Origin: a virus
IMG/VR virus record: IMGVR_UViG_3300035660_001487
Coordinates: 1 to 30,359 of that record
Length of the DNA stretch: 30,359 nt
Strand: one strand, 5' to 3'
A model generated the notes under the pieces. The model had not been told where the DNA came from, did no database searches, and saw nothing but the letters and a program-made list of their open reading frames with translations. Each line of letters opens with the position of its first letter. The stretch's first letter is position 1. Below, piece after piece: positions 2,593 through 12,935 of this stretch. The translations under genes were made by a program, and so were the position numbers.

Positions 2593-2621
2593 GTTGCTAT
2601 CGGTGATGAAGGGAGATGAGG

Positions 2622-3275
2622 ATGCCTGAAAAGGTGACCACGCTGTTCTTCAACGACGTGCGCGAAGAGGTCCCTGCGGCCGAGGCTACCTTCGCCGAGC
2701 GGATCACTGTGGACGACCACGGCGTGGTCGTGAAGTCTGAGCTGTTTACCGTGGAGCCCGAAGAGCCCGTCGCAACCAGCAAGGGCGAGCGAGATGGGGG
2801 TGATTCGTCGCCACGGATGGGTAGTATCCTGAAGGCCGACGAGGACCAGCGGATCGTCTATGGGATCGTGTACGCGGCCGACGATGCGGCGATCGCGAAG
2901 TGGGCCGCGGACGGCAGCAAACCCGAGGACGCCCCCGACGTGGTGGACACCCAGGGCGAATGGGTCGGCGAGGCCACCCTGCGCAAGGCATTCGAGGGCT
3001 ACATGCGCCACTACGCCGAGATGGCGATGGGCGAGGGCAAACTCCCCACCGGGGCCCAGCACCGGCGTCTCGCCAAGGGCGTGGTCATGCTCCAGAGTGC
3101 CCTCCTTGTGAAGGGGACATGCTGGCCGGACGCGGACTCGCCGGCCACTGAGGCGGCGCTCACGTGGGTGCGGGCCGACCATGTGGGCGACGGCGCCGAG
3201 GACCTGTGGAAGGCGATCAAGAAGCAGGAACTGACCGGGTACAGCATGGGCGGGAAGGCGACGCGGGCGACATGA
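2622..3275 (+). CDS. XkdF-like prohead protease (Peptidase S78_2 family)
   Basis: A 217-residue protein. The ATG at 2622 is chosen over the one at 2616 because GGGAG at 2611-2615 abuts 2616 but is six bases from 2622. Residues from about 60 on match the XkdF pattern: ILKADEDQRIVYGIVYAAD, then VVDTQGEWVGEATLRKAF, then LWKAIKKQELTGYSMGG. The family is a serine peptidase that matures the capsid by cleaving scaffold and head proteins. H147 (AQHRR) and S159 (QSALL) align by eye with the family's catalytic His and Ser. The protein stops just after GYSMGG, at tandem TGA TGA. In many relatives the chain continues with a D-L-x-V-x-E-x-S-L-V segment into the scaffold; here that segment begins the gene at 10518. 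Confidence 0.75.
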   Translation: MPEKVTTLFFNDVREEVPAAEATFAERITVDDHGVVVKSELFTVEPEEPVATSKGERDGGDSSPRMGSILKADEDQRIVYGIVYAADDAAIAKWAADGSKPEDAPDVVDTQGEWVGEATLRKAFEGYMRHYAEMAMGEGKLPTGAQHRRLAKGVVMLQSALLVKGTCWPDADSPATEAALTWVRADHVGDGAEDLWKAIKKQELTGYSMGGKATRAT

Positions 3276-3311
3276 TGATGGGCCTGGCGGAAGGCTGAAA
3301 GGAGCATCACG

Positions 3312-3731
3312 ATGGCTGGAAGTCTCAACGATTACCTGGAGTTGAAGTTGCTGGAGGAGCTGACGGGCAAGACGGCATTCACGATGCCGACTGTCTACAT
3401 CGCCCTCTCGCGGGCCGATCCGGGCGAGAGCGGGGCGGGCGTGGACGAGCCGGCCATCGGTTCGTTGGGCTACGCCCGCATTCAAACGGTAGCGGCGAAC
3501 TGGGGAACGGCTGCGGCGGGCGCGATCGCCAACGCGCAACTCCTGGCCTATGCCGAGGCCACGGGCAGTTGGGGCGTCCTCACGCACTGGATCGCCTACG
3601 ACGCGCCCACCGGCGGCAACCCGCTGTTCTATGGGACCATTGACTACCAGGGGACGCCGACTCCGAAGACGATCTCGGGCGGCGACACGGCGAGTTTCGC
3701 CATCGGCGCCCTCGGCGTTACACTGACCTAA
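3312..3731 (+). CDS. Phage virion-associated protein of the 'LNDYLE...LFYG' family
   Basis: A 139-residue protein after a strong SD (GAAAGGAG). It begins MAGSLNDYLELKLLEELTG and continues with a TVYIALSRADPGE strand, a Y-A-R-I-Q segment, WGVLTHWIAYDAPTGGN, LFYGTIDY and a C-terminal ISGGDTASFAIGALGVTL. I recognise this order (LNDYLE, YxALxxADP, GYAR, WGxxTHW, GNxLFYG, GDTxSF) as a common small phage structural protein of unknown exact role, often near fibre or decoration genes. It is mostly beta-structure, and no enzymatic motif is visible. The next gene starts nine bases downstream. It probably belongs to the surface or adhesion module 3312-5930; whether it is head- or tail-associated cannot be told. 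Confidence 0.65.
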   Translation: MAGSLNDYLELKLLEELTGKTAFTMPTVYIALSRADPGESGAGVDEPAIGSLGYARIQTVAANWGTAAAGAIANAQLLAYAEATGSWGVLTHWIAYDAPTGGNPLFYGTIDYQGTPTPKTISGGDTASFAIGALGVTLT

Positions 3732-3740
3732 GGATTAGGA

Positions 3741-5645
3741 ATGGCGATCCCGGTATCGAGAACGCCAGGAGCCAAGGCCGCCGCCACGACTGCTGCGGTT
3801 TCGGTGGCATTGCCCGCCAACATCGCAATCGGCGACATCACGATTCTTGTCGCCGAGACCGATCCTACAGGCACCGTTACCATCACAGTCACCGGGGGCG
3901 GCACCTGGACTGCTTTTACTGGGTTGCCCGCAACCGTCGCCAGCGGATCGAAGTTGTACGCATGGTGGCGGCGACACGCGGGCGGCAATACCGCACCGAG
4001 CGTTCAGGCCAGCGTGGATCATGTCTGTGCTGGTTGCACCGCGTATGGCGGCTGCGTTGGCTCAGGCGATCCCGTAGATGTTTCGGCCGTCGGCACCGAG
4101 ACCGCCTCCGATACCAGTTTCGAGTTCGTGACTGGCATATCCACGACCCGGGCCGATTGCATCTGCATCTGCATTTGCACGAGCAGCGCGGACTCGAACA
4201 CGGGCCAGTTCACGGTGATGACGAATGCCAACCTGTCGAACAAAGCCGAGAAGATGGATTACGAGACAACCTCCGGCCACGGTGGGGGGTTTGCTTTCGA
4301 CGAAGGCGGGCTCGCCATAGCCGGTGCGATGGGCACCTTCGCCGCGACTCTCAGCGCCGCATGGCCGAAAGCCTACATCGCATTCGCTCTGAAGCCGCCG
4401 CAATCGGTTCCGATAGAAGGGTCGGCGGTGGGCGTTGCCGCAACCGCCGCTGCGATCAAAGCCGCGCGGAAGATGGCGGGAGGTAGCACGGCCAGCGGGA
4501 CGACGACGGGAGCGGTCAAGATAGGACGCAACCTAGCGGGTGTCGGCGCGGCGTTCGGCGTTAGCGCAGGCGCGGTAAAGGTGGCGCGTGCCGTCCTTGG
4601 CACCGCGGCCTCGGTGGCGGCGACAATCGGCAACCTTACCATTACGAGGGCGGTGGCGTTGGCCGGCACCGCGGTAGCCGAAGCGATCACCGCAGGCGCG
4701 GTCAAGGTCGGGCGCACCTTGGCAGGAGCCGTCGCCGCAACGGGAACGACCACGGGTGCGGCGCGTGTGACCCTCACCCTGAACGGCGCGGCAGCGGCCG
4801 TCGCTACCACCCTGGGGGCCATCAAGGCAACCCGGAATCTCGCAGGTACAGCAGCGGCGACGGCGGTCACCTCGGCGGCGCTGAAGTGTCAGCGGGCCCT
4901 CGCGGGAATCTCCGAGGCGCTGGGCGCGGCCACGGGGGCTGTGGGTGCCAGCCGCCTGCTGGCGGGATCGGCAGTCGGGCAGGCCACTGCCAACGCGAAC
5001 CTTCGCGTGGCGCGTCTCCTGCAAGGCGTAGCGGTGGCGACGACTGCTGTGAGCGGCACGGTGGGGGTGGCGCGAAAACTGGTCGGGATCGCTGGCGCGG
5101 CTGCCACCACCATCGGGGAACTGACGGTCGAGGTCGGCGGCGCGGTCGTGCAACTCGCGGGGATTGCCGTAGCCGCAGCGACGACGGCGGGCGCCGTCAG
5201 CGTGGCGCGTCTGCTCCAAGGCCAAGCCGCGGTTTTGACCGCCACGAACGGCGCATTGAAAGTGGCCCGCCGATTGGTCGGCGGCATCCTCGCCTCGGCC
5301 AGCACGGCAGGCGCGATAAGAACCGCGCGGCGACTGGCAGGGTCAGTGGTTGCAGCGGCGACAACGGCCGGTATCCTGACCGTTGAAGCGAGCCATGCTG
5401 TACGCCTAACAGGCATGGCGGTTGCGACGAGTACGGTGGTGGGCGCAATCACAGTCGCACGCAAACTGGCGAGTGTCATAAGCGTCATAACGGTTACGGT
5501 TGGATCCCTGCGCGTCGCACGAGAACTGGTGCCAGCCGTCGCCTTGGCGATGGCCCTGCCCACCTCCGCAGACACATCACTGATCCTGGTTGGATCTCCT
5601 CTCGACCTGACGATGGTGTTATCTTCTGAGCAGGAGCTTCCGTAG
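3741..5645 (+). CDS. Adhesin-like virion protein with ~18 tandem 20-residue repeats
   Basis: A 634-residue protein. Residues 1-220 form a beta-rich domain with the pattern of phage and bacterial adhesin-type beta-sandwiches (AAATTAAVSVALPANIAIGD, then GGTWT, then YAWWRRHAGGN, then YIAFALKPP). It contains an unusual DCICICIC strand and several other Cys. Residues about 226-597 are 18 repeats of consensus xGxAxAxxTTxGAVxVARxL. Gly at position 2 is kept in nearly all units and Arg at position 18 in 15 of 18; two units carry 4-5 residue inserts. The last 37 residues are non-repetitive. The alternating small and hydrophobic residues suggest stacked short beta-strands (a solenoid or fibrous shaft), which is inference. 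It precedes a glycosyltransferase cluster and may be a surface fibre and glycosylation target. Confidence 0.7.
   Translation: MAIPVSRTPGAKAAATTAAVSVALPANIAIGDITILVAETDPTGTVTITVTGGGTWTAFTGLPATVASGSKLYAWWRRHAGGNTAPSVQASVDHVCAGCTAYGGCVGSGDPVDVSAVGTETASDTSFEFVTGISTTRADCICICICTSSADSNTGQFTVMTNANLSNKAEKMDYETTSGHGGGFAFDEGGLAIAGAMGTFAATLSAAWPKAYIAFALKPPQSVPIEGSAVGVAATAAAIKAARKMAGGSTASGTTTGAVKIGRNLAGVGAAFGVSAGAVKVARAVLGTAASVAATIGNLTITRAVALAGTAVAEAITAGAVKVGRTLAGAVAATGTTTGAARVTLTLNGAAAAVATTLGAIKATRNLAGTAAATAVTSAALKCQRALAGISEALGAATGAVGASRLLAGSAVGQATANANLRVARLLQGVAVATTAVSGTVGVARKLVGIAGAAATTIGELTVEVGGAVVQLAGIAVAAATTAGAVSVARLLQGQAAVLTATNGALKVARRLVGGILASASTAGAIRTARRLAGSVVAAATTAGILTVEASHAVRLTGMAVATSTVVGAITVARKLASVISVITVTVGSLRVARELVPAVALAMALPTSADTSLILVGSPLDLTMVLSSEQELP
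4415..5533 (+). repeat. Tandem 60-bp coding repeats (20-residue units, diverged)
   Basis: The region codes for about 18 units of 20 residues with a 60-bp period. Units are recognisable at the protein level (a G at position 2, T-T/T-x at 9-10, G at 12, hydrophobic at 14 and 16, R at 18), but the DNA has diverged strongly, with no two adjacent units identical. This indicates an old amplification under structural selection rather than a recent expansion. Two units are longer (near 5121-5160 and 5364-5409), both with an L-T-V-E insert at the same place. Confidence 0.75.
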
Positions 5646-5930
5646 ATGGCAAACTTGTTTGTCGGCAGCCACGGTATGCCCATCGGAGTCACGGTGTCGT
5701 CCGCAGACGATCCCGACCCGCTGATCGGCGCAGAACTGACTGTCTGGCTTGCTGAACCGCGGGGCGCGACGCATCTCGTATCAGTCATCGTAGATAGTGG
5801 CACCCATTTTTACTACATGATAGAACCCGGAGTGCTATCCGTCCCGGGCACCTGGACAGTGAAGTCTCGAGTGGTAAAGAACGGCCGCCAGACTTTTGGC
5901 AAAACAATGTTCACCGTGGACAGATTCTGA
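5646..5930 (+). CDS. Small Ig-like virion protein (BppU-N-like pattern)
   Basis: A 94-residue protein that begins with the base after the previous stop. The sequence reads as beta-strands: an N-terminal GVTVSS strand, an AELTVWLAEPRG segment, YYMIEPGVLSVPGTWTVKSRV and a C-terminal FGKTMFTVDRF. The end pattern (G-x-W-x-V/L-x-x-x-V, then F-x-V) is typical of short Ig-like phage proteins that precede or accompany baseplate and fibre components. There is no catalytic motif. It overlaps the following glycosyltransferase by one base (TGATG), which physically couples the structural triplet 3312-5930 to the modification operon. A small accessory of the repeat protein is a reasonable guess; homology-based assignment would need a profile search. 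Confidence 0.5.
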   Translation: MANLFVGSHGMPIGVTVSSADDPDPLIGAELTVWLAEPRGATHLVSVIVDSGTHFYYMIEPGVLSVPGTWTVKSRVVKNGRQTFGKTMFTVDRF

Positions 5931-6808
5931 TGCCTGGGTACGACCTGCCGCTTGTGGGAATCAACTTCCTGTGCTGCAACCGGGAGCCCCTGCACCATCG
6001 GGCGACAGAGTTCGCGTTGCGCAGCCTGCGCGAATCCGACTTGGCCGAACATGAGTGGCGCATGGTGGCGGTGGATAATGGCTCCACGTGCCCCGAGACG
6101 CCCGGACTCCTGCAGGGATTCGCGGTCGCGAGCGGCGGGAGGACCGAGGTGATCGCGTTGGGAGAGAACGCCGGGATCCCGGTGGCGCGCAATCGGGCCA
6201 GCGAGAGGTTGCTTGACCTGGGCTGCGAGGTGGTGGTGGAGGTTCACAATGACCATCTCTTTCCGCGGCACTGGCTGAGGGCGATGCTCCAGGCCCTCGA
6301 GGCCCAGCCGCGGTGCGGAATCCTTGGCCCTGGGCTGATCACGGAGCGAGGCTACTTCGGTTCGCCGGTCTTGGGGCCAGGGCATGGCTACGAGGCTGGC
6401 TATGAGGCCATGCGTGCTAGGGTGCACGCGCTCAATATGCAACTGGGCCACAACCCCGTTCTGCGGGTCGGCCTGCAGCACCCGGCCGTCAACCGGGCCG
6501 AGATGCTGCGCGAGATCGGCCTGTATGACGAGAGGTTCCCGGCGAAAACCAACTTCGAGGACACGGAACTGTGCTATCGGGCCCACCTAGCTGGCTGGCA
6601 AGTGATGGTGTTCTTGGGGGTGTGGGTCTACCACCACTACCATTTGAGCCGTCTGCAGTTGACCGATCAGTACGCCGACTTCGCGGCCAACAAGGCATAC
6701 TTTGACGCCAAGCATCCGGACTGGTTCCCCTGGAACGTGGAATTCAGCCGCGCCATGGGACAACTCTATGGCCCCGGGCGCGCTTATCATAGGACGGGAC
6801 ACCGATGA
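5930..6808 (+). CDS. Family 2 (GT-A fold) glycosyltransferase
   Basis: A 292-residue protein with GT2 architecture. It has an N-terminal nucleotide-binding strand and VAVDNGS, then a G-E-N-A-G-I-P-V-A-R-N-R-A helix. The metal-binding position is H106-N-D108 (a DXD equivalent, VEVHNDH). Acceptor and catalytic region NFEDTELCYRAHLAGW has E210-D211, the usual catalytic pair of this family, followed by VYHHYH. The family transfers a sugar from a nucleotide-sugar donor to glycan, lipid or protein acceptors. No transmembrane helix is visible, so it should be cytosolic. The one-base overlap upstream and four-base ATGA overlap downstream place it first in a co-translated modification operon. Donor and acceptor cannot be read from sequence; virion protein or host surface glycan are both possible. 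Confidence 0.85.
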   Translation: MPGYDLPLVGINFLCCNREPLHHRATEFALRSLRESDLAEHEWRMVAVDNGSTCPETPGLLQGFAVASGGRTEVIALGENAGIPVARNRASERLLDLGCEVVVEVHNDHLFPRHWLRAMLQALEAQPRCGILGPGLITERGYFGSPVLGPGHGYEAGYEAMRARVHALNMQLGHNPVLRVGLQHPAVNRAEMLREIGLYDERFPAKTNFEDTELCYRAHLAGWQVMVFLGVWVYHHYHLSRLQLTDQYADFAANKAYFDAKHPDWFPWNVEFSRAMGQLYGPGRAYHRTGHR

Positions 6809-7767
6809 GCAAGCCGAAGTGGTTGGCAGTCGGGAACATCTTCCTCGAGCCCTACTGGGCGCCCGAGGTGGAGATCCTGCACTGCCCTGTCGAGGACATG
6901 CCGGCCACGATCGCGGCCAATCCCGACCTACTGTGCCTGTGGAGTATGAACACTGGAGCCTGGGGGAACCCGCAGGAGTTGCCGCGTGCGGTGGCAATCG
7001 CCCGGGCGGCGGGATTGCCCACAGTGTGGCAGACCATTGAGGACCCGAATGGCTGGGCGGGGTTCGTCGCGGAGGCCAAGCAGTTCGATTTCGTGTTCAC
7101 CAGCGCGGCCGAGTGTGTCGAGCGATACAAGGCGGCCGGGATCCCGAACGTGTTCTGGCTCCCCATGGCTTGCCAGCCGGCGATCCACCAGCCGCAAGTG
7201 CTACTGAAGAGCGCGTGCGACCTGGTCTTCATCGGGAACCACTACCCCTACCCCGAGCGGGTCGAGTTCCTGGAGCGGGTCCTGCTGCCGTTGCTACGGG
7301 CGGGCATGACTCTGGCACTCTATTCCTATGCGAACAGCCCGTGGCCGCCGGAGGTGTGCCAGCACTGGCGGGGCGAGACCTCCTGCTACGACGTGGCGCA
7401 GTACTATCGGGACGGGCGGATCGCGTTGGGCGCCAACTGCCAGGGGCGGAACACGTGGATGACCTCGATGCGCACCTACGAGGCGCTGGCGTGCGGGAAG
7501 CCGCTGCTCGCCTATCACAGCGATGCCTACGAGCGCCTGGGATTCGTCAATGGACGGCATTTTCTCTGGACGAATGAGACGGCGCAGGCGGTATTTCTGG
7601 GACGCCTGATGCAGGAGACACCAGTGGAGACGGCGCTGATGGCCGATCAGGGCCGCGAGTTCGTGCTTCGGCACCACACCTACGCGAAGCGGCTGGAGTA
7701 TCTCCGGTACGTGCTCGCCGGCGGAAGGGAACAGTTGAGATTCGTGGTCCAAACCAATGGAGGCTGA
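6805..7767 (+). CDS. CgeB-like glycosyltransferase (GT-B, Glyco_trans_1_2 type)
   Basis: A 320-residue protein starting in an ATGA overlap. The pattern is that of CgeB-like GT-B enzymes: an N-terminal half with a WSMNTG strand and TVWQTIEDPN, then FDFVFTSAAECVERYKAAGI and VFWLPMACQP, a linker with LVFIGNHYPYPERVEFLERVL, and a C-terminal half with ALGANCQGRNTWMTSMRTYEALACGKPLLAY, the donor-nucleotide-binding region with its E-A-L-A-C-G-x-P signature. CgeB is a Bacillus spore-surface protein proposed to glycosylate coat proteins; phage homologues lie in sugar-modification loci. It is probably cytosolic. Together with the adjacent GT2 enzymes it would build a short glycan. The precise sugar is unknown. 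Confidence 0.82.
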   Translation: MSKPKWLAVGNIFLEPYWAPEVEILHCPVEDMPATIAANPDLLCLWSMNTGAWGNPQELPRAVAIARAAGLPTVWQTIEDPNGWAGFVAEAKQFDFVFTSAAECVERYKAAGIPNVFWLPMACQPAIHQPQVLLKSACDLVFIGNHYPYPERVEFLERVLLPLLRAGMTLALYSYANSPWPPEVCQHWRGETSCYDVAQYYRDGRIALGANCQGRNTWMTSMRTYEALACGKPLLAYHSDAYERLGFVNGRHFLWTNETAQAVFLGRLMQETPVETALMADQGREFVLRHHTYAKRLEYLRYVLAGGREQLRFVVQTNGG

Positions 7768-7771
7768 GAAA

Positions 7772-8083
7772 ATGGTGAATGTAGAGGAAATAGAGAGGTC
7801 GATCACGTTCCAGAGGATAGTCGAATCATTGCTTGTGGGCCAGACGATAAAGGCAGCGCAACTGACCGCCCAGGATGAGGAGGATGGCACTACGATGGGT
7901 CTGGCGTTAGAGTTCGAGGGCGGCGGGAGTGCGGCGGTGAAGACTGGTGTCTACAGTGGCGGCGCGCTGTTTCTCACGATCACAGCCGCAGATGGCGAAG
8001 AAAAGATCGGTCCCTGTGACTCGGGCGGATTGCAGACACCCCTGGGCAGAGTGGCGATCCCGGATGGAGTCCTGCGTGGCTAA
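7772..8083 (+). CDS. Hypothetical small acidic protein in the modification operon
   Basis: A protein I do not recognise. The ATG at 7772 is favoured because GGAGG lies eight bases upstream; an in-frame ATG at 7757, inside the end of the glycosyltransferase gene, would add five residues. The 103-residue product has a helical, acidic N-terminus (VEEIERSITFQRIVESLL) and then a compact beta-rich part: GLALEFEGGGSAAVKTG, GGALFLTITAADGEEK and LGRVAIPDG. No metal or catalytic motif is visible. It overlaps the next gene by eight bases, so it is embedded in the operon. It may be a small partner or regulator of the modifying enzymes, but there is no direct evidence. Confidence 0.5.
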   Translation: MVNVEEIERSITFQRIVESLLVGQTIKAAQLTAQDEEDGTTMGLALEFEGGGSAAVKTGVYSGGALFLTITAADGEEKIGPCDSGGLQTPLGRVAIPDGVLRG

Positions 8084-8282
8084 CCCCATCTATGTCATCG
8101 TGGCCTGCGCGAAGTGCGGGGCGCGCGACCGCGAGTTACTCGAGGAACTTGTGCATTCGGATTTCCCCGCGATCGGCGAGCGCGTGGTGAGCACGCATTG
8201 CCGCAGTTGCGGGCGCGCGATCGTGGCGACGTTGCCGCTCAACCCGGCGGGGCAACAACAGATGCCCATGCAGAGGCAGTGA
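8076..8282 (+). CDS. Small zinc-ribbon protein
   Basis: A 68-residue protein with two CxxC knuckles, C11-x2-C14-G and C42-x2-C45-G, each followed by a basic residue: a classic zinc ribbon. GTG at 8076 has GGAG six bases upstream; an in-frame ATG at 8064 would add four residues and cannot be excluded. It overlaps the previous gene by eight bases and the methyltransferase by one base (TGATG). A second protein with the same two-knuckle layout is encoded at 10174-10395, so the pair may be distant paralogues. Such ribbons bind nucleic acid or protein; nothing shows which. Its place in the operon suggests a role tied to the modifying enzymes. Confidence 0.65.
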   Translation: MANPIYVIVACAKCGARDRELLEELVHSDFPAIGERVVSTHCRSCGRAIVATLPLNPAGQQQMPMQRQ

Positions 8283-8818
8283 TGGCGAAACTCAACCTCG
8301 GCTGTGGCCGGGACATCCGCGAGGGGTGGGTGAACGCTGATCGCGCGGCGCTTGTTGGCGTCGAGGTGATCTTCGACATGGACTGCCGGCCATGGCCATG
8401 GGTGGATGACTATTTCGACGAGGCGTGCGCGCGATCGGTGATTGAACATGCCAAAGACAAGATGTTGGTGCTGGAGGAATTGTGGCGTGTATGCCGGCAC
8501 GGGGCGCGCATCCTGGTCACCAGTTGCCCGGCCACGGCGCCCGATGCCTGGATGGATCCCACGCATCGCAATGGAATGCACCCGCGGACCTTCGAGTTCT
8601 TCTGGCCCGGCCACCTCTACAGTTACTACTCGGAGGCGCACTTCATCACGCTGGATGCAACCCACAACGATCTCTATCTGGAGTGGCGGCTGGCGGTCCA
8701 CAAACGCGAGGATGCCGCCCTGCTGGCCCAGCACCGCGACGCTTCGCGTTGGAAAGACAAGTGGGAGGGGCGGATCGCGGAATTGCCGCTCCTGGTGCCG
8801 CCGGAGGTCCTGCCGTGA
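8282..8818 (+). CDS. Class I SAM-dependent methyltransferase
   Basis: A 178-residue protein starting in a TGATG overlap with AGAGG five bases before it. The N-terminus MAKLNLGCGRDIREGWVNAD holds motif I (L-N-L-G-C-G) followed by the acidic position used for the ribose of SAM. A later FDMDC strand and the FDEACARSVIEH segment correspond to motifs II-III of small methyltransferases that begin with LNLGCG. These are common in polysaccharide and glycan-modification loci and act on sugars or on nucleoside-sugar-linked acceptors. It has no target-recognition domain of DNA methyltransferases and lacks the N/DPPY motif, so DNA methylation is unlikely. It is followed in a GTGA overlap by a second methyltransferase-like gene. 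Substrate not determinable. Confidence 0.8.
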   Translation: MAKLNLGCGRDIREGWVNADRAALVGVEVIFDMDCRPWPWVDDYFDEACARSVIEHAKDKMLVLEELWRVCRHGARILVTSCPATAPDAWMDPTHRNGMHPRTFEFFWPGHLYSYYSEAHFITLDATHNDLYLEWRLAVHKREDAALLAQHRDASRWKDKWEGRIAELPLLVPPEVLP

Positions 8819-9402
8819 TCGTGTTTCACGACAACCGCGGCGAGTCGGAGACCGCACTCTATCGGGCGCTCAATCGCGTGATCGTGCCTGAGCGTCATCC
8901 GCACCGGAACTGGGAATATCCGGCGACGCTACTTGCGCTCGCGCCATTGCTTCCGGATGCCGCAGTTCTGTGTGTGGGGGCGATGTGGGACAGTCTTGCC
9001 CTATACCTCTGCCGCACCCAGCGCCGGTTCGTGGCGGTGGATCTGGCCCCGCCGGCCACGATGGCCTGCTGGTTCGGCGAGCCGCTGCCTGAGGGTTGCG
9101 AAGTCCTGTCGGGCCCCGCCGAGGAGGTGCTGCCCAAGTTCTTCGCGGACGGTGAGTTCGACTGCGCGTTCTGCATCAGCACACTGGAGCACATCGAGAT
9201 GCCGGCGCGCGCGAAGGTCTGGAGCGAACTCTGCCGGGTCTCGGCCCGGCGAGTGGTGGCCACGGTGGATTACACCGCCTGCAAACCGCCACTATGGGAC
9301 ATGCTGAACCCCGTGCGCATGGAGGAGATGACGGGTGTGCGGGGGCCCGATGTGTACGGCGATGGATGGCAGCCGTTGCAGATTATTTGGGAGCCAGGAT
9401 AG
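8815..9402 (+). CDS. Second SAM methyltransferase-like protein (type 11-like)
   Basis: A 195-residue protein with a GTG start overlapping the previous stop (GTGA); GGAGG lies seven bases upstream. It contains HRNWEYPATLLAL, the W-E-Y-P lead-in seen in methyltransferases of glycan clusters. Then come AVLCVGAMWDSLALYL at the motif I position, RRFVAVDLA (motif II), FDCAFCISTLEHIE (motif post-II/III, methyltransferase type 11-like) and RVVATVDYT. The motif I glycines are reduced to a single Gly (V-G-A-M-W), which is unusual, so activity should not be assumed. The next gene starts eight bases downstream. Methylation of a phage-added sugar is the best guess from context. Confidence 0.72.
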   Translation: MIVFHDNRGESETALYRALNRVIVPERHPHRNWEYPATLLALAPLLPDAAVLCVGAMWDSLALYLCRTQRRFVAVDLAPPATMACWFGEPLPEGCEVLSGPAEEVLPKFFADGEFDCAFCISTLEHIEMPARAKVWSELCRVSARRVVATVDYTACKPPLWDMLNPVRMEEMTGVRGPDVYGDGWQPLQIIWEPG

Positions 9403-9409
9403 GAAGCCA

Positions 9410-10180
9410 ATGACCCATGTCCTCATCGGCGGACTCGTGCACGACCGTCCCCAGGTCGAGTGCTACCTGCGGCACCTGCGGGAACTCGACACCGAAGGGT
9501 TGGAGATCTCCTGGGCCTTCGTGCTCGATGGCGTAGACGAACCGGACTGGTGCGATCTGTGGCCGGAAGGCGCCCGCTTCTTGGACGGGCCGCCCGGGCC
9601 GCACTGGGACCGCAAGGCCCTGGATAAGCCGGCCTGCTACGCGCACCTGGCCGATCTGCGCAACCTCCTACGTGCGCACGCGCTCGAAGTCGGCGCCGAC
9701 TATCTGCTGAGCGTGGACAGCGACATCATCGCGCCGCCCGACGTGCTCAAGCGGCTGCTGGCCTCTGGGAAGCCCTGGGTGGCGGGCCTTGTGAGCAACC
9801 GGGAGCCGGGGCAGGAGGACGGGCGAACTTTCAACGTCTTCAAGGTCAAACTGAGCGCCCCCCAGCCTTTCCTGCAGCATTTCCAGCCCATGGGGACAGG
9901 CGCCCACGGGAACCCATGGCCGGGGCCAGAGGGCGCTGGGCAGGACCCGCGCGATACGCTGGTCCCCTCGGTGCCTTTGTGCGTGGGGGCGGTCTGCCTC
10001 TACCAAGCCACTCTGCTGCGCTGCGCCACGTTCGCGGGGCACCGCTGGGGCGAGGACATCGGGTTTGCCCGGCAGGCGTTCAGCGCCGGCTACTCGGGCT
10101 GGTATCTGCCCTTGCGCTGCGAGCACCTGATGACGGTGGAGCAGTTGGCGGAGCACCGTGCGAGGTGCCCACTATGTTGA
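9410..10180 (+). CDS. GT-A fold glycosyltransferase with DSD motif
   Basis: A 256-residue protein; the ATG at 9410 follows AGGATAGGAAG. It starts with a strand typical of GT-A enzymes (THVLIGGLVHDRPQ), continues with ISWAFVLDGVDEPDW and reaches YLLSVDSDIIAPPDVL, where D103-S-D105 is the metal and nucleotide-sugar binding DXD motif. Near the C-terminus HRWGEDIGFARQAFSAGY has E215-D216 at the catalytic acid/base position. A Pro/Gly-rich segment at about residues 163-185 may be a flexible loop. It resembles phage- and plasmid-borne GT2-like enzymes in modification clusters. It overlaps the following zinc-ribbon gene by seven bases. This is the third glycosyltransferase of the cassette. Sugar and acceptor unknown. 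Confidence 0.78.
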   Translation: MTHVLIGGLVHDRPQVECYLRHLRELDTEGLEISWAFVLDGVDEPDWCDLWPEGARFLDGPPGPHWDRKALDKPACYAHLADLRNLLRAHALEVGADYLLSVDSDIIAPPDVLKRLLASGKPWVAGLVSNREPGQEDGRTFNVFKVKLSAPQPFLQHFQPMGTGAHGNPWPGPEGAGQDPRDTLVPSVPLCVGAVCLYQATLLRCATFAGHRWGEDIGFARQAFSAGYSGWYLPLRCEHLMTVEQLAEHRARCPLC

Positions 10181-10395
10181 CGGCCGACCAGGTGACGCCC
10201 CCGGGACGGACCCCGCAATTGCGGGTGCTCTCCTGCCCATCATGCGGTGCCCTGCGCTTGCGGGCCAACCTCGCCATCGAAAAAGGCACGGTCGAGGTAG
10301 AGGACTTCTGCCGGCGCTGCGGAACTCGCACTCTCTGGACGCTTGACAGTTCTGGCGATGCTCGCTACGCTGTCATCGCAGAACGCAAGCGATAG
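10174..10395 (+). CDS. Small zinc-ribbon protein (second copy type)
   Basis: A 73-residue protein starting at ATG 10174, eight bases after GAGG. Cys pairs C21-x2-C24-G and C46-x2-C49-G form a zinc ribbon, with the sequence between them short and charged (AIEKGTVEVEDF). The layout matches the zinc-ribbon protein at 8076-8282, and both sit next to a modifying enzyme. It is the last gene of the cassette, ending 122 bases before the scaffold gene. The TTGACA hexamer of the candidate promoter lies within its 3' end. Metal binding is likely; the partner is unknown. Confidence 0.65.
   Translation: MLTADQVTPPGRTPQLRVLSCPSCGALRLRANLAIEKGTVEVEDFCRRCGTRTLWTLDSSGDARYAVIAERKR
10343..10371 (+). promoter_or_regulatory. 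Candidate sigma70-type promoter upstream of capsid genes
   Basis: A perfect -35 hexamer TTGACA (10343-10348), a 17-base spacer and TACGCT (10366-10371), which keeps the T-A---T positions of the -10 consensus. The start of transcription would fall near 10378, inside the end of the zinc-ribbon gene, and the RNA would enter the structured element at 10424-10487. The -10 box is weak (3 of 6) and a single TTGACA can occur by chance, so this is a candidate only. Confidence 0.35.
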
Positions 10396-10414
10396 ACACT
10401 GAATAACATGCCTC

Positions 10415-10457
10415 AGCGGCCCTAGCGGCCCAGAAGGTCTAGCGACCCGAGCGGTCC
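10415..10457 (+). repeat. Four short AGCGRYCC repeats
   Basis: Copies at 10415, 10424, 10441 and 10450 (AGCGGCCC, AGCGGCCC, AGCGACCC, AGCGGTCC). Spacing is 9, 17 and 9 bases. The second copy is also the 5' arm of the terminator-like stem. They could be protein-binding sites or a by-product of the RNA structure. Confidence 0.45.
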
Positions 10458-10487
10458 ATGCGCGCAACGCGCCTGGGCCGCTTTTTT
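10424..10487 (+). terminator. Branched RNA structure with intrinsic-terminator tail
   Basis: A perfect 10-bp outer stem AGCGGCCCAG (10424-10433) with CTGGGCCGCT (10473-10482) is followed directly by a T run (10482-10487). Inside the stem are a four-base-pair hairpin GGTC/GACC (10436-10447) and a five-base-pair hairpin GCGCG/CGCGC with a CAA loop (10460-10472). A G/C-rich stem followed by U residues is the signature of a rho-independent terminator; a branched interior is unusual. It separates the modification cassette from the scaffold-capsid genes, so it may end cassette transcripts or act as a regulated leader. Confidence 0.7.
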
Positions 10488-10517
10488 GTTTGCCAGGCGC
10501 GAGGACGGAGGCAGACG

Positions 10518-11477
10518 ATGCCCGAGTTGACGGATCTCACCGTAGAGGAGATCAGCCTGGTGGGCAAGGCGGCCAATGGCCAGCGGTTCATCCTCTACAA
10601 ATCCGACGAAGGAGGTGGCACCCTCGTGGAAATGCAGAACGAGGAAGCCCGCAAGGCCTTCGAGGACGCCTTGAACGGCGAAATCGACGGCGAGGCCGGC
10701 CTGATCGGGAAGGCGGGAAACCTACTGAAGGCTGACCTCAGCAACACCACCGAGAACGAACTGCGGGGCGGACTGCGGCTGCTGGCCGCAGCCCGCGGCG
10801 AGTTGGGTGACGAGGTGGTCAAGGGCGTGCTGGCCGAGGCCGGATACGTGCCAGCGCCAGCAGCCGCGCCCGTCGCCAAGCCCGAGACGAAACCCGCGCC
10901 GACGAAGGCGGCTCCGCCAACCCCCGAGATCGACGCGACGGTGCCCGACGAGGTCATGGCCGTCGCCAAGGCGGCTGGTCCCGACGACGGCGCGCAGATC
11001 CTCGCGCGTTATCGCGAGGACCCGAAGGGGGCGGCGGTCTGGTTCCCGATGCTCAAGGCGCAAGCCGAGGAGATCGCAGATCTTCGCAAGAGCGAGAAGG
11101 AACGGGCCGACCGCGAGGACGCCGAGGCGTGCCGCAAGGCGGCCGAGGACCTGGGGATCCCGGGCGACCGGGCCACCCAGGAGAAGTTCCTCAAAGGCCT
11201 CTCGCTCGACCAGCGCAAGGCACTCGCCGACTACCTGAAGCCGGCGCAGGCGCAACTGGAGAAGGCCGACCGTTTGCTGCTTGGCGAGCTTGGCACTTCG
11301 CGGCGCGGCGCCGAGGGCGGCGATACCGCCTACGAGATCGCGATGGAGAAGGCCCGGGCCCTGGTCGCCAAGGGCGACGGGAAACTGAGCGAGACTGACG
11401 CGCTGGTCCAGGTCTTCCAGGCCGAACCCGACCTCCACCGGCGCCACCGCGCCGAGACCTTGAAGGGAGGTGCGTGA
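10518..11477 (+). CDS. Capsid scaffold-like protein
   Basis: A 319-residue protein starting at ATG 10518 after GGAGGCAG. Residues 1-30 contain LTDLTVEEISLVGKAANGQ followed by FILYKS, a segment usually found at the C-terminal edge of XkdF-like prohead proteases before the scaffold part. The middle is Ala/Pro/Lys-rich (about 112-140). Residues about 170-300 are highly charged and helical (ADLRKSEKERADREDAEACR), as expected for a coiled-coil scaffold. It lies just upstream of the decoration and major capsid genes, the standard place for a scaffold. It would direct prohead assembly and be cleaved by the protease encoded at 2622-3275. The frame is open upstream to 10458 but those codons lie in the terminator. 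Confidence 0.72.
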   Translation: MPELTDLTVEEISLVGKAANGQRFILYKSDEGGGTLVEMQNEEARKAFEDALNGEIDGEAGLIGKAGNLLKADLSNTTENELRGGLRLLAAARGELGDEVVKGVLAEAGYVPAPAAAPVAKPETKPAPTKAAPPTPEIDATVPDEVMAVAKAAGPDDGAQILARYREDPKGAAVWFPMLKAQAEEIADLRKSEKERADREDAEACRKAAEDLGIPGDRATQEKFLKGLSLDQRKALADYLKPAQAQLEKADRLLLGELGTSRRGAEGGDTAYEIAMEKARALVAKGDGKLSETDALVQVFQAEPDLHRRHRAETLKGGA

Positions 11478-11478
11478 G

Positions 11479-11916
11479 ATGGCCGCTGAACAGCCTGTCG
11501 TGGATGCGGTCCATACGTTGATCGCCGGCGAGGACCTGCGCCTCATGCAGTACCACGCCGTGAAGATCTGCTGCTGGAGCGACTTCAAGAACTGCTCGCA
11601 GGTCCGCTTGTGCGGAGATGGGCAGAAGCCTTGCGGGATCCTCCAGAACAACCCCAACATCGGCGAGGAAGCGATCGTGATGAGGGCTGGCAAGTCAAAG
11701 GCCGTGATCGCGGAAGCCATCTGTTGCGATGGCAGCACCCCGCTCGATTCCTGGGCATCGGACGTCAACGGACACCTGGTGATCATCGCCAACCACGACT
11801 GGGTGGGCGGGATGTTCCACGAGCGGATGGTGATGTCGGCCACTCCTGGCGAGGGCGACATCGGCACGGTCGACGTCGAGTGCCTGAATCCCTGGCTCTA
11901 CCACGCACTGCAGTGA
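11479..11916 (+). CDS. Head decoration-like protein (DUF2190-like)
   Basis: A 145-residue protein. The ATG at 11479 is chosen because GGGAGG lies eight bases upstream; a GTG at 11470 is within that SD. The pattern AGEDLRLMQYHAVKI, CGILQNNPNIGEEAIVMRAGKSKAVIAE and DVNGHLVIIANH is that of small beta-rich capsid decoration or stabilisation proteins of the DUF2190 type, often encoded just upstream of the major capsid protein. Seven Cys residues (a CC pair twice, plus C42, C48, C55) are unusual for this family and could bind metal or form disulfides. Placement between scaffold and capsid supports a head role. Confidence 0.65.
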   Translation: MAAEQPVVDAVHTLIAGEDLRLMQYHAVKICCWSDFKNCSQVRLCGDGQKPCGILQNNPNIGEEAIVMRAGKSKAVIAEAICCDGSTPLDSWASDVNGHLVIIANHDWVGGMFHERMVMSATPGEGDIGTVDVECLNPWLYHALQ

Positions 11917-11930
11917 GGAGGTAATCCAAA

Positions 11931-12935
11931 ATGCCACTCCCGAACGTGTCTGACGTGCATGTGGACCAGCTCCTCACCAATATCGCCCAGGTCTACCTGA
12001 TGGGGCCTTCGGCGTTTGTGGCGGAGCGGGTCTCCCCCACGGTTCCGGTCAAGAAGCTGACTGACCGGATCCTCCAGTTCGACCGCGCGGATTTCTTCCG
12101 CGACGATGCGCGACCGCGCGCCCCAGGTACCGAATCCCAGGGCGGCGGCTTCCGCATTGACACCGACGAGACCTACAACTGCCAGGAGTGGGCCTGGCAC
12201 TACGACCTGCCGGACGAGTTGCGGGACAACGCCGACCAACCCATTGACCTGGAGCGGTCGGGCACCCGGTGGGTGACCCAGATCCTGCAGATCCGGCGGG
12301 ACCGCACCTGGGCCCTGCGCCACTTCGCGGCTGGCCTGTGGACGACCCAGTACACGGGGGTGCCCGGAGCCCCGGCGCCCGGGCAGGTGCGCCAGTGGGA
12401 TGACTACGTGAACTCCAACCCGATCGCCGACGTGGAGAACGCCAAGGATGCCATGCACACCCTGACGGGCTTCGAGGCCTTGGAATCCATGGGCAAGATC
12501 AGGATGGTGATCGGCCGGCCGGTGTGGCGGTGGCTCAAGCACCACCCGGTGATTGTGAACCGTTACGTGTTCAGCCAGCCCGTCCCGGTCCTCACTGAGC
12601 CCATGGTGGCCTCGGCGCTGGGCGTGGACGAGTTGATCGTGGGCAAGGCGGTCTACACCAATACTGCGGAGGGCGGAACGCCCGTCGTCTACCAGGGCAT
12701 TTTGGGCCGGCACGCCCTGTTGATGTACGTGCCGGACGGGCCGTCGCTCGACACGCCGAGCGCGTCCTACACGTTCAACTACACGGGTGGGAACCGCATG
12801 GGGCAGCGCCTCCTGATGGAGCGCTATCGGTCTCCACTCGACTCCAAGTTCGACAGGCTCGTCGGGTCGATGTTCTACGACCAGCGCCTGCTCGAGCCGG
12901 ATCTGGGCGTGTTCATTCAGACCGTCGTGGCCTAG
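11931..12935 (+). CDS. Major capsid protein (HK97-fold type)
   Basis: A 334-residue protein with a strong SD (GAGGAGG). It begins MPLPNVSDVHVDQLLTNIAQVY and contains FVAERVSPTVPVKK, a TWALRHFAAGLW helix, a GFEALESMGKIRMVIGRPVWRWLKHHP segment and the C-terminal FDRLVGSMFYDQ end. The length and the N-terminal pattern (V-D-x-x-L-T-N-x, F-V-A-E-x-V-x-P-x-V) match a large group of phage major capsid proteins expected to have the HK97 fold. The protein forms the icosahedral shell around the scaffold. A perfect hairpin follows the stop codon by about 19 bases. Its place between decoration protein and connector genes is as expected. Confidence 0.85.
   Translation: MPLPNVSDVHVDQLLTNIAQVYLMGPSAFVAERVSPTVPVKKLTDRILQFDRADFFRDDARPRAPGTESQGGGFRIDTDETYNCQEWAWHYDLPDELRDNADQPIDLERSGTRWVTQILQIRRDRTWALRHFAAGLWTTQYTGVPGAPAPGQVRQWDDYVNSNPIADVENAKDAMHTLTGFEALESMGKIRMVIGRPVWRWLKHHPVIVNRYVFSQPVPVLTEPMVASALGVDELIVGKAVYTNTAEGGTPVVYQGILGRHALLMYVPDGPSLDTPSASYTFNYTGGNRMGQRLLMERYRSPLDSKFDRLVGSMFYDQRLLEPDLGVFIQTVVA

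Follow-up and report, generated by a model that had tools for sequence, protein, structure and literature searches.

A phage prohead protease whose last active-site strand may be supplied in trans by the scaffold protein, and the cassette at the seam between the two genes

It has long been asked how phages silence their capsid protease before the prohead is complete. In HK97, the protease gp4 (Peptidase_S78, PF04586) is one polypeptide with the order His...GxSxG...EISxxxxPAN, which appears in its sequence as ...GMSVGF...REISVCTFPAN. The spacing from S114 to E141, the latter assigned by position, is 27. T4 gp21 and the herpesvirus assemblins also have single-chain catalytic domains, and herpesvirus chains continue from the protease into a fused scaffold. 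For SPN3US gp245, the triad consists of H77, S153 and D178 with a spacing of 25 between the Ser and the third residue (PMC5694885), and a chain ending at residue 155, two past the Ser, lacks the third residue, for which reason it is expected to have no activity (PMC7411985). A further described protein is XkdF of Bacillus PBSX (PF14550, Peptidase_S78_2). In the open-access literature, neither a split prohead protease nor the catalysis of XkdF was found described.

The window, meaning the whole 30,359-nucleotide stretch of viral DNA that was analysed, has a protease gene, a cassette and a scaffold gene in that order (Table 1). The capsid family to which the window belongs shares the order of motifs seen in HK97 gp4 but differs in that the last strand lies on the scaffold gene. 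Together with structure prediction for a relative, this arrangement suggests that the window quite probably encodes a split maturation protease, the last active-site strand of which would be supplied in trans by the scaffold protein.

Table 1. Features of the window from the protease gene to the major capsid gene
Feature	Coordinates	Strand	Basis or remark
XkdF-type (Peptidase_S78_2) prohead protease	2616..3275	+	Pfam HMM; catalytic His149, Ser210
Tandem TGA stops at the seam, closing the protease	3273..3278	+	
Head/fibre protein, PF23140 (GP4 fiber I gp80)	3312..3731	+	Relatives elsewhere in L259, L046, L047
634-aa Ala/Thr/Val-rich repetitive protein, fibre/adhesin-like	3741..5645	+	Weak relatives in L259, L047
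94-aa protein, function unknown	5646..5930	+	
Family 2 glycosyltransferase (PF00535)	5930..6808	+	Pfam
Glycosyltransferase (PF13524 = Glyco_trans_1_2, PF12996)	6805..7767	+	Pfam
108-aa protein, function unknown	7757..8083	+	
Small zinc-ribbon-like protein	8064..8282	+	Cys pairs; Pfam matches below cut-off
Methyltransferase (PF08241 Methyltransf_11)	8279..8818	+	Relative in L099
Methyltransferase (PF08241 Methyltransf_11)	8815..9402	+	Pfam
Putative glycosyltransferase, Anp1-like	9410..10180	+	Anp1 match below cut-off
Small zinc-ribbon-like protein	10174..10395	+	Matches below cut-off
Strong terminator-like hairpin and U-run, between cassette and scaffold	10449..10491	+	
Scaffold protein, 319 aa	10518..11477	+	Followed by the decoration and major capsid genes; relatives likewise placed
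Putative protease-completing segment, scaffold N-terminus (DLTVEEISLVGKAANGQRFILYKS)	10518..10610	+	Glu11 at the predicted third triad position, by structural analogy with L007
Decoration-like head protein	11479..11916	+	
Major capsid protein	11931..12935	+	Query for finding relatives

The protease gene and the start of the scaffold gene

With a score of 50.1 bits against PF14550, for which the cut-off is 24, the window protease clearly belongs to the XkdF family. Its chain closes with ...ELTGYSMGGKATRAT and then TGA TGA, 9 residues past Ser210 and before the third triad position. His149 and Ser210 of the GxSxGG motif align with columns that are each conserved in 74 of 74 loci, while the third catalytic residue and its strand are absent from the chain; the strand sits on the scaffold gene at 10518. 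There, an ATG preceded by GGAGG opens the protein with MPELTDLTVEEISLVGKAANGQRFILYKS, and the segment missing from the protease, DLTVEEISLV-KAANG, forms the start of the gene. Both genes have a proper stop, start and ribosome site.

An earlier note on this DNA had read the protease as stopping at the tandem TGA and the missing segment as opening the scaffold gene, and a segment search confirms it. When a model of the segment was run against the six-frame translation of the window, a 30-kb fragment within which the single copy holds, the sole match was the scaffold start (E 6e-10; next best about 0.7). A model built without the window still gave it as the one significant match in the same translation (E 5.5e-4, followed by 0.77), and the segment scored 15.1 bits against a best of 7.4 bits among 2000 shuffles of the scaffold. 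Within the scaffold, conservation is highest in the segment, with a mean identity of 0.41-0.50 vs 0.12-0.37 elsewhere in the protein. Both halves match the same head maturation protease family, PHROG 3017, the protease aligning with positions 123-154 of the model and the scaffold with positions 3-32. As for the scaffold itself, its gene stands directly before the decoration and capsid genes and its family relatives occupy the same place, in keeping with a scaffold of a tailed phage.

Just upstream of the protease, at 1843-2592, the window encodes a protein with HEIGHAIYERRAG, a zinc-metallopeptidase-like motif; this protein had no match in Pfam or PHROG.

Relatives and the age of the split

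Relatives were found by way of the capsid protein and comprise 87 IMG/VR loci, 17 genome loci and a number of annotated phages; since the loci partly share ancestry, counts among them are not all independent. IMG/VR gave no relatives when scanned with the single sequence of either the protease or the scaffold of the window, tblastn of the window scaffold in phages found nothing, and neither did a genome scan with an alignment of the window and L007 capsids. An alignment of nine capsid sequences was too diverse as a scan query.

Protease and segment share one ORF in 0 of the 77 loci where models detect both halves, and in 8 further loci the segment was seen by eye in the gene that follows the protease. 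The median gap between the two genes is 26 nt across the 77 loci, compared with 7248 nt in the window. In the locus with the best scaffold match (L259, E 8.6e-8), protease and scaffold are adjacent without a cassette. The same holds for L015, with the protease stop at 2817 and the scaffold start at 2820, and for L007, where the protease stop TAA is directly followed, in frame, by the scaffold ATG. These are the adjacent, cassette-free relatives that the earlier note had proposed to look for. Among annotated phages, RDJL, CRP-6, KPP23, RHph_Y60 and Mulvp2 are split at the same position as the window but, unlike it, have adjacent or overlapping genes and no cassette; the capsid proteins of RDJL, KPP23, RHph_Y60 and Mulvp2 are related to that of the window, while CRP-6 was identified through its protease. 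In every case the seam lies past the catalytic Ser and before the third triad position. Because the nearest relatives are split without a cassette, and because all 77 loci are split at the same position, the split is older than the cassette.

These loci also bear on whether the cassette itself divided a single protease-scaffold gene. Single-chain relatives do exist and the window cassette lies exactly at the seam, yet nearly all of the 77 split loci, including the nearest three, are cassette-free, and both window genes are properly bounded for translation. Such an origin is extremely improbable in view of the relatives. The cassette insertion proposed in the earlier note thus stands as an event of the window lineage but not as the cause of the split.

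Another candidate explanation is that frameshifting or read-through joins the halves and yields a little fused protease-scaffold product. About ten loci have the two genes in the same frame with one stop as the sole barrier, which would suit read-through; however, the relative frames of the two genes vary freely (13, 27 and 32 loci for frames 0, 1 and 2), and inserts of 0.7-7 kb make fusion impossible in several lineages. The frame distribution and the inserts together make a translational fusion very improbable. The halves are encoded as separate polypeptides, and since they share no common frame relation and kilobase inserts preclude fusion where they occur, the segment, if needed, would act between two proteins.

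The window is not alone in having an insert. In Arthrobacter phage Salgado, 2.1 kb separates the protease (gp18, annotated as RNA ligase) from the scaffold gp24. L260 has a 2.3 kb insert fused onto the protease at the seam, and L038 and L085 each have an insert of about 0.7 kb there; the insert genes are unrelated. The seam has taken other inserts in at least four lineages; the pattern recurs, and the window shows it in its most extreme form.

Several smaller observations concern the seam. The L260 protease (4075-6693), ahead of the scaffold, is about 720 residues longer at the seam, and the extension ends in a stretch with a ParB-like DGHHR motif and a CxxC tail. A His-rich motif pair, GHTH...SHPW...GHTH, occurs in the scaffold of RDJL-type phages, but RHph_TM16 and RcZahn have it in the C-terminal protease tail (L008 10349-11458, L038 6246-7499, L005 7977-8609, L004 7971-8615), so this domain has also switched sides of the seam. 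In Salgado gp18, the 'RNA ligase', a 2H-phosphoesterase-like part precedes the XkdF protease. Misannotation is recurrent, since RDJL Phi 2 is among the phages in which the short protease bears the name DNA methyltransferase, and several proteases of the group formed by RDJL, CRP-6, KPP23, RHph_Y60 and Mulvp2 carry that label or 'hypothetical' (misannotated examples are L008 9949-10347, L013 5592-6713 and phrog_1530).

Unsplit forms were sought with the protease and scaffold of L007 joined into an artificial single chain, the in-frame stop being read as Gln. By tblastn, 140 phage records have one place covering at least 80% of the pair. Of these, the four that were read (psiM2, Comrade, Peregrin and Polewnik) encode a single chain in the order protease, segment, scaffold, the protein of the Brevundimonas phage Polewnik being annotated as hypothetical. 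The chains of psiM2 (ORF12), Streptomyces phage Comrade (gp27) and Rhodococcus phage Peregrin (gp76) stand directly before the capsid gene, and that of psiM2 has Thr at the third triad position. Because natural single chains keep the same order, the derivation of protease and scaffold from one colinear unit is supported, in agreement with the earlier note. The single chains of Comrade and Peregrin (L267 1447-2766, L270 1435-2742) carry a CxxC zinc-ribbon-like insert right after the segment.

In XkdF of Firmicutes, the segment (THVSYVDKAANKKSFFLTKS) lies on the N-terminal side of the protease within a single chain, and not on another protein as in the window. By sequence this is an apparent circular permutation; the AlphaFold model of the permuted form (L182) has a pLDDT of 41, too low to use. 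The view that the segment usually follows the protease in this family therefore holds for S78-type and single-chain relatives but not for Firmicutes XkdF. In the Firmicutes proteins (L002 4288-5337, L182 1501-2547) the segment usually has His in place of Glu (THVSYV). Herpesvirus proteases have His at the third active-site position.

Active-site geometry and the proposed role of the scaffold

Protease ORFs of the family end 9-17 residues past the catalytic Ser, with a median of 12 (n=70). Because the window protease ends 9 residues past its Ser, and the third position lies at 25-27 in the SPN3US and HK97 enzymes, the window protease alone would by analogy be the same kind of truncation as the shortened SPN3US chain. 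In the joined L007 chain the Ser-to-Glu spacing is 25, and this chain matches PF04586 (25.6 bits, cut-off 21), while the L007 protease alone has no match.

The AlphaFold model of joined L007 has a pLDDT of 90.4 and a pTM of 0.83. In it, the scaffold segment is predicted as a strand (128-142, pLDDT about 97) beside the strand that bears the Ser (111-123). When the model was compared with the PDB by Foldseek, the only matches with E <0.001 were T4 gp21 chains, followed by the HCMV and EBV herpesvirus proteases with probabilities of 0.96-1.00. The combined halves of this one relative, L007, thus have a predicted assemblin fold, and the best fold matches are the single-chain domains from which the window family differs in being split. 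Against BFVD, single-chain prohead proteases matched over the full length, and several XkdF proteins over only about 121 columns, as long as the protease half. A PDB search by sequence profile gave no match, and the hhalign profile match to HK97 was modest, with a probability of 43%.

Of 87 loci, about 76 have Glu at the third position, and the remaining 11 or so have K, Q, F or N. Since the residue varies among loci, the strand itself is better supported than a catalytic role for the Glu and may be more important than the residue it carries. The same variation, together with the Thr of psiM2, would fit a protease that is already complete as a Ser-His dyad, with the strand recruiting it to the procapsid as a docking tag and taking no part in catalysis. 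Such a limited role is doubtful, since the segment corresponds in colinear order to the catalytic strand of S78, lies at the right spacing, has Glu in most loci and is predicted to be an integral strand beside that of the Ser.

A scaffold contribution to the active site would work as follows. A fold of the S78/assemblin type needs its last beta-strand about 25 residues past the Ser, carrying the third active-site residue, and the missing strand (E-[IL]-S-x-V..PA[NQH]...K) would be the one with which the scaffold, the gene after the protease, begins. We infer that the protease docks on the scaffold N-terminus, whose strand would complete both the protease barrel and the active site. Cleavage would then be confined to protease held in the growing procapsid, so that proteolysis would wait for assembly, after which the completed protease would trim scaffold and capsid proteins. 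Because the halves would meet as proteins, the seam between their genes could tolerate insertions.

Alternatively, the protease could be a relic and the scaffold N-terminus conserved for some other reason, such as capsid binding. No activity has been reported in the open-access literature for the window's protease family, but a relic is very improbable given that His and Ser are kept in every one of the 74 loci and that the order of the pair is kept across unrelated hosts, in single-chain and split forms alike.

On balance, the comparison favors a widespread class of phage proteases with a divided active site, in which the protease would provide His and Ser and the scaffold the last strand, usually with Glu. 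The scaffold would then be both substrate and obligatory cofactor, and proteolysis would be licensed by assembly; the module would occur as a single chain as well and, apparently, in permuted form in Firmicutes. If true, this would directly answer the question of protease silencing for a large phage family. The split would also account for the labels 'methyltransferase' and 'hypothetical' on these proteases, for the end of the Pfam XkdF model just past the Ser, and for the settling of unrelated cassettes at the seam.

The cassette at the seam

The glycan cassette of the window is secondary to the split protease. It is an insertion, in the window lineage, into the pre-existing seam. Judged by its genes, this 7.2-kb module of head-fibre genes with glycosyl- and methyl-transferring enzymes would probably serve to modify the virion surface. 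The earlier note had listed three structural or adhesin genes, three glycosyltransferases, two methyltransferases, two zinc ribbons and a terminator-like element; the fibre genes, two of the glycosyltransferases, both methyltransferases and the hairpin are supported, while the third glycosyltransferase and the zinc ribbons fall below the Pfam cut-offs. The genes lie on one strand with tight spacing, mostly overlapping.

Phage-encoded glycosyltransferases have been proposed to modify capsid proteins, for example in mycobacteriophage Maravista (PMC11256854). Those of the window resemble them in being phage-encoded but differ in that none of the three has a tblastn relative among 50,697 phage records.

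The codon use of the cassette, suggested as a check for recent acquisition, differs from the rest (p = 0.017), mainly due to low-GC3 fibre genes; the GC3 of the enzymes is 0.827, near the 0.869 of the head genes, and composition is weak evidence for recent acquisition. The relatives of the fibre genes follow the capsid gene in L259 but precede the protease in L046 and L047, and this part of the cassette is mobile.

The hairpin at 10449-10483 has a folding energy of -27 kcal/mol, matched by 1 of 200 shuffles, and is followed by TTTTTTGTTT. This argues for a boundary between cassette and capsid genes at 10449-10491, and the proposal that the glycan enzymes share control with the capsid genes is not upheld, since a strong terminator-like element separates them.

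The largest cassette protein (3741-5645) has long low-complexity repeats of the form A-T-T-A-G-A-V-x-V-A-R-x-L-x-G and is a possible glycan acceptor. In L007 (1090-2679), L046 (2497-4214) and L047 (1557-4895), fibre/adhesin-like genes lie between portal and protease, and surface genes beside the protease are common among the relatives of the window.
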